Assembly: GCF_024701375.2 (NCBI RefSeq) | Contig: NZ_CP113910.1 | Span: 5,084,001 to 5,148,000 of the forward strand | Direction: 5' to 3' | Length of the DNA stretch: 64,000 nt | From: Streptomyces sp. KMM 9044 | Lineage (GTDB): Bacteria > Actinomycetota > Actinomycetes > Streptomycetales > Streptomycetaceae | In this document: one piece after another, positions 30,142 through 37,381 of the stretch | Layout of the letters: each line of letters opens with the position of its first letter | Position numbering within the stretch: the first letter of the stretch is position 1 | Notes under the pieces: generated by a model | Databases searched by the model: none | What the model was told of the DNA's origin: nothing | What the model saw: only the letters and a program-made list of their open reading frames with translations | Translations under genes and position numbers: made by a program

Positions 30142-30214
30142 GGGGCTATAGCTCAGTTGGTAGAGCGCCTGCATGGCATGCAGGAGGTCAGGAGTTCAAT
30201 TCTCCTTAGCTCCA
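30142..30214 (+). tRNA. tRNA-Ala (anticodon GGC), copy 1
   Basis: 73-nt cloverleaf. Acceptor GGGGCTA pairs with TAGCTCC including the alanine identity pair G3-U70. The D-arm is GCTCAGTTGGTAGAGC, the anticodon stem CCTGC/GCAGG with loop ATGGCAT (anticodon GGC), and the T-arm contains GGAGTTCAATTCTCC. The 3' CCA is not encoded. Identical to the copy at 30892-30964. Confidence 0.97.
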
Positions 30215-30244
30215 CAGAAGCTCCACAGGTCGCATGACGAAGAT

Positions 30245-30891: not shown

Positions 30892-30964
30892 GGGGCTATA
30901 GCTCAGTTGGTAGAGCGCCTGCATGGCATGCAGGAGGTCAGGAGTTCAATTCTCCTTAGCTCCA
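30892..30964 (+). tRNA. tRNA-Ala (anticodon GGC), copy 2
   Basis: Identical base for base to the copy at 30142-30214, including the G3-U70 pair and anticodon GGC; CCA not encoded. Followed within eight bases by a strong palindromic terminator. Confidence 0.97.
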
Positions 30965-30971
30965 CAGCAGT

Positions 30972-32706: not shown

Positions 32707-33962
32707 TTGAAGCCTCCGGAAGGCGTGTTCCAAGGTTCGCCCGATCCCGGTGCGTCGAAGTCGTACGACGCACCGGGGGATGGATCAGTGGCGGGACCGC
32801 TGTTGTACGTGTCACTCGGGTTGTACGTGTTGTAGAGGTTGTTCGACTCACCGGTGTCGTACACATCACTCGAGCCGTAGCCGGAGGCAGCCGAATTGTC
32901 GTAGGTCGGGATGTTGTATCCGGTGTCCTGGAGCGGGTCGTAGGCCGACGGCGGGGCCTCGCCGACCGGCGGCGGGGACGGGATGGGCCAGCTGCCCGAC
33001 GTGCTGGAGAGGCCGTCCGCGATCGGGCCGTCCACGGTGGGGACGGCCTGCGTGGGCTGCATGTCCGGGGGCAGCTGCATGGGGGCGGTCCGGTCGGTGT
33101 GGAGGGGCTGCTGCGGCTGGGACGGGGCGGAGACCGCGCGGTAGGCGGCCGCGAAGCCGTTCGCAGGGTCCGGGGCCGGTGGCGCGACGCGTTCGGCGGT
33201 CTCGTACAGCGGCCGGGACGCCGGTTCGAGGCGCTCGGCACGGGACCGGGAGTCCCGCCTGCCGCCACTCTCGTACCCGGGGAGCGAGGCCTCGGCGACG
33301 CGGGCCCGGCTCTCGTCCAGTCTGTCGCGGCCACCCTGCTCGGCGGTGCCGAGCAGGGTGGTGGCCCGGTCGGCGACCTTGCGCTTGACCTGCGGCGGGG
33401 AGGCGCGCAGGGCAAGGGCTGCCATGACGCCGAGCAGGGACAGGCCGTACAGGATCAGGAAGACCGGCTTCGCCGCTCGACCCGCGTAGAGCCCGTGCAC
33501 GAGCGCCGCGCACCAGGCCGGGTAGGCCAGCATGTGCATGGCGCGCCAGCGGGCCGCGACGGGTGCCGGCGAGGTGAAGCGGTTGCGCAGGACGCCGGTG
33601 ACGCCGACGAAGATCATCAGCATTCCGGCCAGGGTGCCCAGGCCGATCAGGAAGGACCTGCCGAGGGCTGCCTCGTCGTCGGTGAGGGCCAGCCCGAAGG
33701 GGATCGCCGCGGCGATCCAGGTGGTGTGGTCCAGTGCCAGCTTGATGCCGATGTGCACCAGCAGGAAGGCGATCGAGGCGGCCGCGGTCGCCCGGTGCAC
33801 CGCCTGCGCCAGGATGCGCTGGCGCGGACCGAGCAGGACCCGGTCCTGGGCGACGAGTCCCCAGATCACCGAGCAGCTCAGGCAGACGAGCGACAGGACG
33901 CCCATGCCGAAGTTGAGGAACTCGGCGAACCAGTCGTCCGCCGTGCTGTCGTCCGGCCTCAC
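32703..33962 (-). CDS. Ferric-reductase-like bis-haem membrane protein
   Basis: 419-aa protein. The first 190 residues carry about six transmembrane helices. Two His pairs, His56/His70 (HRATAAASIAFLLVH) and His143/His156 (HMLAYPAWCAALVH), have the 13-14 residue spacing of haem-b ligands in ferric-reductase-like transmembrane domains. The rest (about 230 residues) is a Pro/Ser/Tyr-rich disordered tail. GTG 33962 follows GGGAGG. Together with the overlapping downstream flavoprotein-ferredoxin gene it suggests a route NAD(P)H - FMN - FeS - haem across the membrane; the acceptor is unknown. Confidence 0.75.
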   Translation of the reverse strand: MRPDDSTADDWFAEFLNFGMGVLSLVCLSCSVIWGLVAQDRVLLGPRQRILAQAVHRATAAASIAFLLVHIGIKLALDHTTWIAAAIPFGLALTDDEAALGRSFLIGLGTLAGMLMIFVGVTGVLRNRFTSPAPVAARWRAMHMLAYPAWCAALVHGLYAGRAAKPVFLILYGLSLLGVMAALALRASPPQVKRKVADRATTLLGTAEQGGRDRLDESRARVAEASLPGYESGGRRDSRSRAERLEPASRPLYETAERVAPPAPDPANGFAAAYRAVSAPSQPQQPLHTDRTAPMQLPPDMQPTQAVPTVDGPIADGLSSTSGSWPIPSPPPVGEAPPSAYDPLQDTGYNIPTYDNSAASGYGSSDVYDTGESNNLYNTYNPSDTYNSGPATDPSPGASYDFDAPGSGEPWNTPSGGFK

Positions 33963-34130
33963 GCCCCGCCTCCCCGTGTCGCGACGGAGAACGGGGGAAG
34001 GCGCACTGCGGAATGCGGGTACGGCCGAGCGGCAGCCGGCCGGCCCTGAACGGGAGGCGGGCTGCTGTCTGGACGAGGGCTCATGGGGGAACTCCGAACG
34101 TTCGGGAGAAGCGGTCCCGCGCCGCACTCT

Positions 34131-34161
34131 AAACCTCGTTGTACCGGGTAGTACGAGGTTT
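34131..34161. promoter_or_regulatory. 31-bp palindrome upstream of the electron-transfer operon
   Basis: Arms of 15 bp (AAACCTCGTTGTACC and its complement, 13 of 15 paired) surround one central base; the outer nine pairs (AAACCTCGT / ACGAGGTTT) are perfect. It lies about 170 bp upstream of the leftward operon and about 160 bp before the leuS leader, in an AT-richer stretch. It looks like the operator of a dimeric regulator. Confidence 0.6.
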
Positions 34162-34306
34162 GAGTTATTGCGCTGTTATTAAAAGACGATCTGACTGTCG
34201 TGATGCCCCTTAGGGGTTGTTACGCGAAGTAATTTTTGACCGGGATTCAGGAGCGGTGCCCGTCGCGGCGGGGCACGGTGCGTCGCGGCGCGCGCCGGGC
34301 CTGCGG

Positions 34307-34312
34307 TACCCT
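34307..34312 (+). promoter_or_regulatory. Candidate -10 box for the leuS leader transcript
   Basis: TACCCT ends seven bases before the A of the leader-peptide ATG at 34319, so the mRNA would begin at or near that ATG. No clear -35 box; TTGACC at 34236 is too far upstream to pair with it. Confidence 0.45.
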
Positions 34313-34318
34313 GACGTC

Positions 34319-34357
34319 ATGCGTGCCGTACGCCTTCTGCTTAGCGAGCCGCGCTGA
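34319..34357 (+). CDS. leuS leader peptide (MRAVRLLLSEPR)
   Basis: A 12-residue ORF with three consecutive leucine codons (CTT CTG CTT, 34334-34342) lies 135 bases upstream of leuS and before an intrinsic terminator. Runs of the regulated amino acid in a short ORF are the mark of a ribosome-mediated attenuator. Leader-peptide attenuation of amino-acid genes is known in actinobacteria. The ORF appears to lack a Shine-Dalgarno sequence and may be translated from a leaderless mRNA. Confidence 0.7.
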   Translation: MRAVRLLLSEPR

Positions 34358-34413
34358 TCAGCCCCGACCACGGTCGAAGAGCGAACCGGACGGCCGGAAT
34401 CGGCGCGGCGTCC
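34348..34413 (+). promoter_or_regulatory. Alternative leader RNA pairings for leuS attenuation
   Basis: Bases 34348-34358 (GCCGCGCTGAT, spanning the leader stop codon) can pair with 34399-34409 over 11 positions with one G-U. In competition, GGACG plus GCCG (34388-34396) can pair with CGGC (34401-34404) and CGTCC (34409-34413), taking the first three bases of the terminator's left arm. A ribosome stalled on the Leu codons would cover 34348-34358 and favour this antiterminator. The model is inferred from pairing only. Confidence 0.5.
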
Positions 34414-34435
34414 CCTCCTGTGCGAGGGGATTTTT
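34411..34435 (+). terminator. leuS leader terminator
   Basis: TCCCCTC (34411-34417) pairs with GAGGGGA (34424-34430), six-base loop, followed directly by TTTTT. It lies 57 bases before the leuS start, where read-through is required for leuS expression. Confidence 0.85.
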
Positions 34436-34492
34436 CATTTCCGAATGTCGCAGCGGCCGTGGGCGCAGACGATCGATGGAGCTTTGAGGATC

Positions 34493-37381
34493 ATGAGCGA
34501 GACGAACCCCGCGGCCACCCCCGAAGTGGCCGCGCCGCACCGCTACACGGCCGCCCTGGCGGCCGAGATCGAGGCACGCTGGCAGGACTTCTGGGACGCC
34601 GAGGGCACGTACGACGCACCCAATCCGAGCGGCGACCTGGCGGGCGACCCGGAGACGGTGGCCCGGCCCAAGAAGTTCATCATGGACATGTTCCCCTACC
34701 CGTCGGGTGCGGGACTGCACGTCGGCCACCCCCTGGGGTACATCGCCACCGACGTCTCCGCCCGGTTCCAGCGCATGACCGGCCACAACGTCCTGCACAC
34801 CCTGGGCTTCGACGCCTTCGGCCTGCCCGCCGAGCAGTACGCCGTGCAGACCGGCACGCACCCGCGCGCGTCCACCGAGGCCAACATCGAGAACATGAAG
34901 GCCCAGCTGCGCCGCCTGGGACTGGGCCACGACCGGCGCCGGTCGTTCGCCACGATCGACCCGGACTACTACAAGTGGACCCAGTGGATCTTCCTGCAGA
35001 TCTTCAACTCCTGGTACGACGACGAAGCCGGCCGGGCCCGGCCCATCGCCGAGCTGATCGCCGAGTTCGAGTCCGGTCAGCGCCCCGTACCGGGCCGCAC
35101 GCGCCCGTGGAGCGAGCTGAGCGGTGCCGAGCGCGCCGACGTCCTGGGCGGCTTCCGGCTGGCCTACGCCTCCGACGCGCCGGTCAACTGGTGCCCCGGG
35201 CTGGGCACCGTACTGGCCAATGAGGAGGTCACCGCCGAGGGCCGCTCCGAGCGCGGCAACTTCCCGGTCTTCAAGGCGAAGCTGCGCCAGTGGAACATGC
35301 GCATCACCGCCTACGCCGACCGGCTGCTGTCGGACCTGGACGCACTGGACTGGCCCGAGGCCATCAAGCTGCAGCAGCGCAACTGGATCGGCCGCTCCGA
35401 GGGCGCCCGCGTCGACTTCCCCGTCGACGGCGAGCGGATCACCGTCTTCACCACCCGCCCCGACACCCTGTTCGGCGCGACCTACATGGTGCTGGCGCCC
35501 GAGCACCCGCTGGTCGAGAAGTTCACCCCGGCCGCCTGGCCCGAGGGCACCCACGACGTCTGGACCGGCGGCCACGCCACCCCGGCCGAGGCCGTCGCCG
35601 CGTACCGCGCACGGGCCGCGTCCAAGTCGGACGTGGAGCGGCAGGCCGACGCCAAGGACAAGACCGGCGTCTTCATCGGCGCGTACGCGACCAACCCGGT
35701 CAACGGCGAGCAGGTGCCCGTCTTCATCGCGGACTACGTCCTGATGGGCTACGGCACCGGCGCGATCATGGCCGTACCGGCCGGCGACCAGCGCGACTTC
35801 GAGTTCGCGCGCGCCTTCGAACTGCCGGTCCACTGCATCGTCGAGCCGACCGACGGCCGCGGCACCGACACCTCCACCTGGGAGGACGCCTTCTCCTCCT
35901 ACGAGGCGAGGATCATCAACTCGTCGAACGACGAGGTGAGCCTGGACGGCCTGGGCGTCGCCGAGGCCAAGGCACGCATCACCGAGTGGCTGGAGCGCCG
36001 GGGCATCGGCGAGGGCACCGTCAACTTCCGGCTGCGCGACTGGCTGTTCAGCCGGCAGCGCTACTGGGGCGAGCCCTTCCCGATCGTCTACGACGAGGAC
36101 GGCACCGCCCACGCCCTGCCCGAGTCGATGCTGCCGCTGGAACTGCCCGAGGTCGACGACTACTCCCCGCGCACCTTCGACCCCGACGACGCCGACACCC
36201 GGCCCGAGACGCCGCTGTCACGCAACGAGGACTGGGTCGAGGTCACCCTGGACCTGGGCGACGGCCGCGGCCCGCGCGCGTACCGCCGCGAGACCAACAC
36301 CATGCCCAACTGGGCCGGCTCCTGCTGGTACGAGCTGCGCTACCTGGACCCGCACAACAGCGAGAAGCCGGTCGACCCACGGATCGAGCAGTACTGGATG
36401 GGCCCGCGCGAGGGCATGCCGCACGGCGGCGTCGACCTGTACGTCGGCGGCGCCGAACACGCCGTCCTGCACCTGCTGTACGCGCGCTTCTGGTCCAAGG
36501 TGCTGTACGACCTGGGGCACGTGTCGTCGGCGGAGCCGTTCCACAAGCTGTTCAACCAGGGCATGATCCAGGCCTATGTCTACCGTGACAGCCGGGGCAT
36601 CGCGGTGCCGGCCGCCGAGGTGGAGGAGCACGAGGGCGCCTACCACTACCAGGGCGAGGAGGTCTCCCGGCTGCTGGGCAAGATGGGCAAGTCCCTGAAG
36701 AACGCGGTCACGCCGGACGAGATCTGCGCCGAGTACGGGGCCGACACGCTGCGCCTGTACGAGATGGCGATGGGCCCCCTGGACGTGTCGCGGCCGTGGG
36801 ACACCCGCGCGGTGGTCGGCCAGTTCCGGCTGCTGCAGCGGCTGTGGCGCAACATCGTCGACGAGAACACCGGCGAGGTGACCGTCGTCGACACCCCGGA
36901 CGCCGACATCGACGTGGCCACCCTGCGTGCCCTGCACAAGGCGATCGACGGGGTGCGCCAGGACCTGGAGGGGATGCGTTTCAACACCGCCATCGCCAAG
37001 GTCACCGAGCTGAACAACCACCTGACGAAGGCGGGGGGCCCGGTCCCGCGCTCGGTCGCCGAGCGGCTGGTGCTGCTGGTGGCGCCACTGGCCCCGCACC
37101 TCGCCGAGGAGCTGTGGCGCACGCTGGGCCACACCGACTCGGTCGTCCACCGGGACTTCCCGGTCGCCGATCCGGCGTACGTCGTCGACGAGACCGTCAC
37201 CTGCGTGGTCCAGATCAAGGGCAAGGTGAAGGCCCGGCTGGAGGTCTCGCCGTCCATCTCCGAGGCGGAGCTGGAGAAGGCCGCGCTGGCCGACGAGAAG
37301 GTCACCGCCGCGCTGGGCGGGGCCGGGATCCGCAAGGTGATCGTGCGGGCGCCGAAACTGGTGAACATCGTTCCGGCGTGA
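34493..37381 (+). CDS. leuS: Leucyl-tRNA synthetase
   Basis: 962-aa class I aminoacyl-tRNA synthetase that charges tRNA-Leu. The HIGH motif appears as HVGH in [18 protein letters not shown] (about residue 75). The KMSKS motif is KMGKSLKN (about 729). The CP1 editing domain lies between, with [22 protein letters not shown] 34493 has GAGGA six bases upstream; the open frame begins earlier, inside the leader terminator region. Expression is probably controlled by the upstream leucine-codon attenuator. Confidence 0.97.

Follow-up and report, generated by a model that had tools for sequence, protein, structure and literature searches.

Attenuation ahead of the leucyl-tRNA synthetase gene leuS is already in print for Streptomyces. 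A comparative study (Seliverstov 2005, PMC1262725) predicted a classical attenuator upstream of leuS in both S. avermitilis and S. coelicolor, and an RNA-seq reannotation of S. lividans TK24 from 2021 (PMC8079986) described LeuL2, a leaderless leader encoding the peptide MRAVRLLLSEPR and followed by a hairpin and a uridine stretch. The transcription start of the leuS leader was mapped in the same S. lividans work (PMC8079986), which is also the only paper in the literature searched that contains the peptide.

Here we analyse a stretch of 64,000 nt (the window) from Streptomyces sp. KMM 9044 (GCF_024701375.2, contig NZ_CP113910.1, positions 5,084,001–5,148,000 of the forward strand), in which MRAVRLLLSEPR is encoded directly before leuS, as it is for LeuL2. 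The leuS leader attenuator is thus not a new finding, and it is ordinary in kind. What is added here is its presence in many more actinobacterial families, together with a rare leucine codon whose distance from an RNA helix is constant. In the literature searched, with many subscription papers beyond reach, no title or start of an abstract named a leuS attenuator outside Streptomyces, and we found no description of a fixed distance between a rare Leu codon and a covarying helix across families.

The leuS leader in the window

The gene leuS (34493–37381, plus strand, as are all leader features below) encodes a leucine--tRNA ligase whose protein scores 905.6 bits against TIGR00396, for which the cut-off is 548.4. 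The region before it opens with a -10 box, TACCCT (34307–34312), followed after 6 nt by the ATG (34319) of a 12-codon leader ORF (34319–34357) that encodes the published LeuL2 peptide. Three consecutive Leu codons, CTT CTG CTT, occupy 34334–34342, and the third of them (CTT, 34340–34342) is the probable sensor. An intrinsic terminator, GTCCCCTC-CTGTGC-GAGGGGAT with its U run, fills 34410–34435; the hairpin itself spans 34410–34431, the U run ends at 34435, and the ATG of leuS at 34493 lies 57 nt beyond it. The ORF with its three Leu codons and the terminator 57 nt before leuS had both been proposed in a first-pass annotation made from the sequence, and both hold: the leader is conserved, and the terminator is recovered by reading, by folding, by a terminator scan and by covariation. 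The scan, which covered 33900–34900, returned three sites against 0.6 expected from shuffles, two of the three being this same hairpin.

The tail of the leader, over its stop codon (34348–34358), pairs with the strand directly before the terminator (34399–34409) in a helix of 11 consecutive pairs, which we call P1, and both P1 and the terminator are part of the minimum-energy fold. Inside P1, a C-rich and a G-rich stretch form a weak hairpin (34364–34397) in that fold; by alignment the stretch is present in many family members and missing in many relatives, and several groups are without it. The folding energy of the leader is ordinary (z -1.26, with 26 of 200 shuffles folding equally well) and alone says little; it is conservation that marks the leader as more than chance. 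Elsewhere in the window, two tRNA-Ala(GGC) genes (30142–30220 and 30892–30970) form a 79-nt repeat that is 99% identical, the copies lying 750 bases apart.

Conservation of the leader and of P1

Within the family the leader is well conserved. A short ORF with at least three consecutive Leu codons lies within 450 nt upstream in 78 of 80 named leuS loci, the remaining two being a locus that begins inside leuS (L081) and one from Mycolicibacterium (L082); four of the 78 leaders belong to Micromonospora and encode MAGVFLLLTGPC or MAGVFLLLTEPC. The DNA of 34290–34510 was matched in 138 of 150 family genomes, and all of the other 12 match R2, an RNA model built from the more distant loci described below. 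A TAnnnT box 6–7 nt before the start codon was found in all 182 parsed loci (178 from the family, 4 from Micromonospora) with a parser that gave preference to candidates having such a box. The parser missed six of the 188 loci: one holds a 10-base placeholder (L184), and the element is present on inspection in each of the other five (L119, L126, L127, L171 and L188). The first-pass annotation had placed the -10 box for a start at the leader ATG, and the constant spacing, like the leaderless state of the S. lividans leader (PMC8079986), agrees with that placement; transcription would start at or beside 34319.

The third Leu codon is CTT in all 95 loci found among 108 on one strand, the other 13 lying on the opposite strand and being found in a later parse; one family member, L171, has CTG at the sensor place. 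Across 164 distinct sequences, each of positions 1–9 of P1 is paired in 163 or more, and position 10 is paired in 156. Changes on both sides occur at positions 5, 6 and 11, and sliding one strand along the other lowers pairing to 22–57%. In alignment A1, which holds 58 of 60 sequences chosen for diversity from these 164 (two of 130 nt were omitted), covariation in P1 is thin because the family is so conserved, with 2 pairs and 4 cells; one of 500 shuffles had as many cells.

To look further afield we used R1, an RNA model built from A1, alongside R2. R1 matches 147 of 394 class genomes (59 of 137 genera) and R2 matches 181 (76 genera), tallies that include leaders of other genes and that leave more than half of the class genomes without a match at the filters used. 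The 296 phylum genomes yielded 19 with a match, five of them outside the class, and two of these five have leuS beside the match. We fetched 100 loci: R1 had 110 matches beyond the genus, and 98 of these were taken, along with one locus of the same genus and one of the own genome. In 91 of the 100, leuS lies in the stretch. Omitting the same-genus locus (L320) and the nine without leuS left alignment A3, with 90 loci under 22 family labels. The nine comprise three citramalate synthase loci, two leuC, two leuA, one contig end (L277) and the own-genome locus (L321), a weak second R1 match (E 0.57) that has no leuS and that we take as chance.

The best LeuS segment falls below 50% identity in 53 loci, of which two lie outside the class. 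From these we scanned 16 (one per family plus the two outside the class), and leuS_bact was the best NCBIfam family in every one, 15 of the 16 scans falling below the whole-protein cut-off because the segments are pieces. One genome (G341) carries two leuS-like genes, L230 and L284, each with its own Leu leader and P1; their best segments are 40.5% and 73% identical to the LeuS of the window.

Over the 90 loci of A3, P1 and the terminator are paired in 98.5% of cells, a percentage that leans toward the model because A3 was fitted to the model's structure. Changes on both sides occur at 10 of the 16 pairs of P1 and the terminator, in 96 cells, where shuffles average 10.7 and none of 500 comes as high; sliding the strands drops pairing to 41–55%. 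The first-pass annotation had called for compensatory changes in two stems, and for the first of them, which is P1, this is what the class-wide data reveal.

A rare leucine codon at a constant distance from P1

The promoter spacing and the position of the codon extend to other families in the same way. In 89 of the 90 leuS loci a -10 box precedes the start by 6–7 nt, whereas control placements gave 0 of 450. A Leu codon starting 8 nt before P1 is present in all 90 (CTT in 83, CTC in 6, CTG in 1), although this fixed distance is partly ascertained, because the model by which the loci were collected also scores these leader letters. When the Leu codon nearest to P1 is counted instead, 88 stand at 8 nt, a further Leu codon following in L272 and L280. 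The expectation that related leaders would keep their Leu codons is therefore borne out at the sensor place, inside the family and beyond it. The rest of the run is less constant: Leu stands one, two, three and four codons upstream of the sensor codon in 89, 78, 16 and 0 of the 90 loci, and in L300 the sensor CTT is the sole Leu left of the run.

The sensor codon is rare in the gene that it precedes. None of the 75 Leu codons of leuS in the window is CTT, and CTT accounts for 2 of 1276 leuS Leu codons in 74 named segments (Streptomyces and close relatives) and for 14 of 1689 in 91 segments.

The end of the peptide, on the other hand, floats. The stop codon lies between -2 and +25 nt relative to the start of P1, at -2 in 14 loci, at +7 in 62 and at +10 to +25 in 14. 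In the loci with the stop at -2, the CCGCG-like tail lies beyond the end of the peptide and keeps its distance as non-coding RNA. Because the stop codon drifts while the distance of the tail is kept, the codon-to-P1 distance looks selected and the end of the peptide does not, as far as sequence comparison can tell.

Candidate antiterminators

A classical attenuator also has a competing stem, and the first-pass annotation drew one: a stalled ribosome would let 34388–34396 pair with 34401–34413, taking part of the 5' arm of the terminator. This stem can be drawn in the window sequence and is absent from the minimum-energy fold. Scored in A1 as nine pairs, it holds in 79.9% of cells for the inner four but in 49.6% for the outer five, those that reach the terminator, and much of the stretch that it uses, the upstream strand included, is missing in many relatives that keep P1, the Leu codons and the terminator. 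In the same 58-sequence alignment, none of 500 shuffles reached its covariation score or its 16 double-change cells (against 7.8), so the stem may matter in part of the family. We rejected it as a general antiterminator, its pairing being patchy, and an attenuator built on it appears unlikely.

The pairing of 34403–34408 with the terminator loop (34418–34423) was rejected as well. It is possible in 94.8% of cells, with no double changes and with all 500 shuffles reaching each measure, and its energy does not improve on that of random loops: of 23 families, 8 rank below 0.5 and none below 0.1, with a mean of 0.58. The median barrier to refolding from the loop pairing to the terminator is 11.2 kcal/mol for the own family; two other families give 11.1 and 11.8, another two give 2.8 and 3.4, and most of the remainder lie at 6.4–9.4. 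The loop pairing could play a part only kinetically. Neither of the two pairings tested is supported as a general antiterminator, and the class-wide data support two helices only, P1 and the terminator. The antiterminator may vary from lineage to lineage, or else exposure of a single strand would suffice.

Attenuation and its alternatives

We propose ribosome-mediated transcription attenuation of leuS, as the first-pass annotation did, and consider it probably the best explanation of the leader. An ORF with Leu codons, a terminator between that ORF and leuS, and a helix that a stalled ribosome could break are all in place, and the peptide, the codons, the promoter spacing and the first of the two proposed pairings are each supported by comparison. 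With transcription starting at the leader ATG, ribosomes would load on the bare 5' end of the RNA. When Leu-tRNA is ample, the ribosome would complete the leader and depart, P1 would form and lock the strand next to the terminator, the terminator would fold, and leuS expression would stay low. When Leu-tRNA is short, the ribosome would stall, most effectively at the third Leu codon, CTT, and cover the start of P1; the freed G-rich strand (34399–34409) could then interfere with the terminator and allow read-through into leuS. We infer the stalling, the masking and the direction of the response from the layout, including the earlier suggestion that slow Leu decoding keeps leuS on, and the step from stall to read-through is borrowed by analogy from the classical model. 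On this basis, the leader probably raises LeuS when charged leucine tRNA is scarce.

Simple arithmetic indicates which codon would do the sensing. For three assumed lengths of the ribosome footprint, a ribosome whose A site holds the third Leu codon covers 1–7 of the 11 P1 bases on the 5' strand, and one at the first Leu codon covers 0–1, so that the last Leu codon is the natural choice of sensor. If a ribosome with the longest footprint stalls at the third Leu codon and masks P1, the prediction is that the freed strand pairs with the 5' half of the nascent terminator while the 3' half has yet to emerge, by a mean of 4.5 pairs over the 164 sequences and 2.3 in the leader of the window. When the stall is placed at the first Leu codon, the figure is 0.2. 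At equilibrium with P1 masked the terminator still wins (mean probability 0.95), so any effect of a stall would be kinetic.

It is also conceivable, if quite improbable, that the leader is translated and control is exerted otherwise, for example through protein binding to P1 or to the terminator, or through plain coupling of translation and transcription. The want of a conserved antiterminator among the pairings tested would fit such control, and so would a report that exchanging regulatory codons of the ilvB leader in S. coelicolor was without effect (PMC1262725), which counts against codon sensing. However, a Leu codon at a fixed distance from a covarying helix, ahead of the enzyme that uses leucine, points to codon reading, and so do Ile codons, with a spacing close to this one, ahead of a citramalate synthase gene (below). 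A T-box or other ligand-binding riboswitch is almost certainly not involved: unusual T-boxes have been reported before ileS in some Actinobacteria (PMC1262725), but 33900–34800 has no match to any Rfam covariance model, the T-box included, at E up to 1, and the whole window contains only two tRNAs.

Related leaders

The geometry seen at leuS recurs at other genes. The own genome has a leader, MRTRILVLGQRVGRR (L342, C1:1983135–1983160, minus strand), ahead of a gene for the large subunit of acetolactate synthase, ilvB. Its last Leu codon is CTT, followed at 8 nt by a helix of 9 pairs and directly by a terminator. It shares the geometry of the leuS leader but has mixed branched-chain codons, and no TAnnnT was seen at the usual place.

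Three of the fetched loci (L313, L314 and L316) have, about 1000 bases in, a leader with three Ile codons and a terminator before a citramalate synthase gene. In L313 the helix starts 7 nt past the last Ile codon and the downstream piece matches TIGR00977; the other two are alike by eye. The leader appears to be an isoleucine attenuator built like that of leuS, and no paper on a leader of citramalate synthase was found in the literature searched. Two further leaders, one with four Leu codons (MRTVLLLLSGRDETSF, L315) and one whose Leu codons are interrupted by His (L318), have a -10 box 6 nt before the ATG and stand ahead of leuC. Their tails resemble those of the leuA leaders in L317 and L319. 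The gene was assigned by scan in L315 (leuC) and L317 (leuA) and by eye in L318 and L319, respectively.

Ahead of leuS, the plan was seen under 23 family labels of the class (counting the own family) and in two genomes from outside the class; it also precedes ilvB in the own genome and, with Ile codons, the citramalate synthase gene. We tentatively suggest, at somewhat less than even chances, that one switch helix with no dedicated antiterminator runs these actinobacterial attenuators: a rare sensor codon would stand 7–8 nt before the helix, the far strand of the helix would abut the terminator, and exposure of that strand would spoil termination. If exposing one strand does defeat the terminator, attenuators of this kind require fewer components than the textbook version, and leaderless initiation would, if the idea is true, be a regular route for amino-acid sensing in Actinobacteria.

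Comparison with known systems

With our analysis, what had been predicted for two species becomes a measured design rule that names the leucine-sensing codon, the place where the ribosome would stop and the helix that it would have to break. The fixed distance between rare codon and helix makes the mechanism directly testable, and the leaders before citramalate synthase and leuC suggest that the rule can serve to find more.

The closest relative is LeuL2-leuS of S. lividans TK24 (PMC8079986), which has the same peptide and the same hairpin and uridine stretch before leuS, and whose leaderless start agrees with the -10 spacing in the window; the element itself is no different. The part of that account devoted to LeuL2 leaves P1, the distance rule and other families unmentioned (PMC8079986). 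The attenuators predicted at leuS in 2005 (PMC1262725) consist of a leader peptide, an antiterminator and a terminator; the leader peptide and the terminator are shared with the present one. They concern some Streptomyces only, whereas the leader described here extends to other families. The ilvB1 attenuator of Mycobacterium tuberculosis (PMC13236596) combines an upstream ORF carrying branched-chain codons with a terminator and an antiterminator. It differs in the gene that it precedes and in the length of its leader, 166 nt, and its ORF is not described as leaderless in the portion of the report that bears on it (PMC13236596). The LEU element before leuA of Actinobacteria (PMC1262725) also has a leader with a run of Leu codons. 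That element, however, is a pseudoknot over the Shine-Dalgarno box (PMC1262725) and, as described for leuA of S. lividans (PMC8079986), is without a typical terminator, whereas the leuS leader has a typical terminator, abutted by P1.
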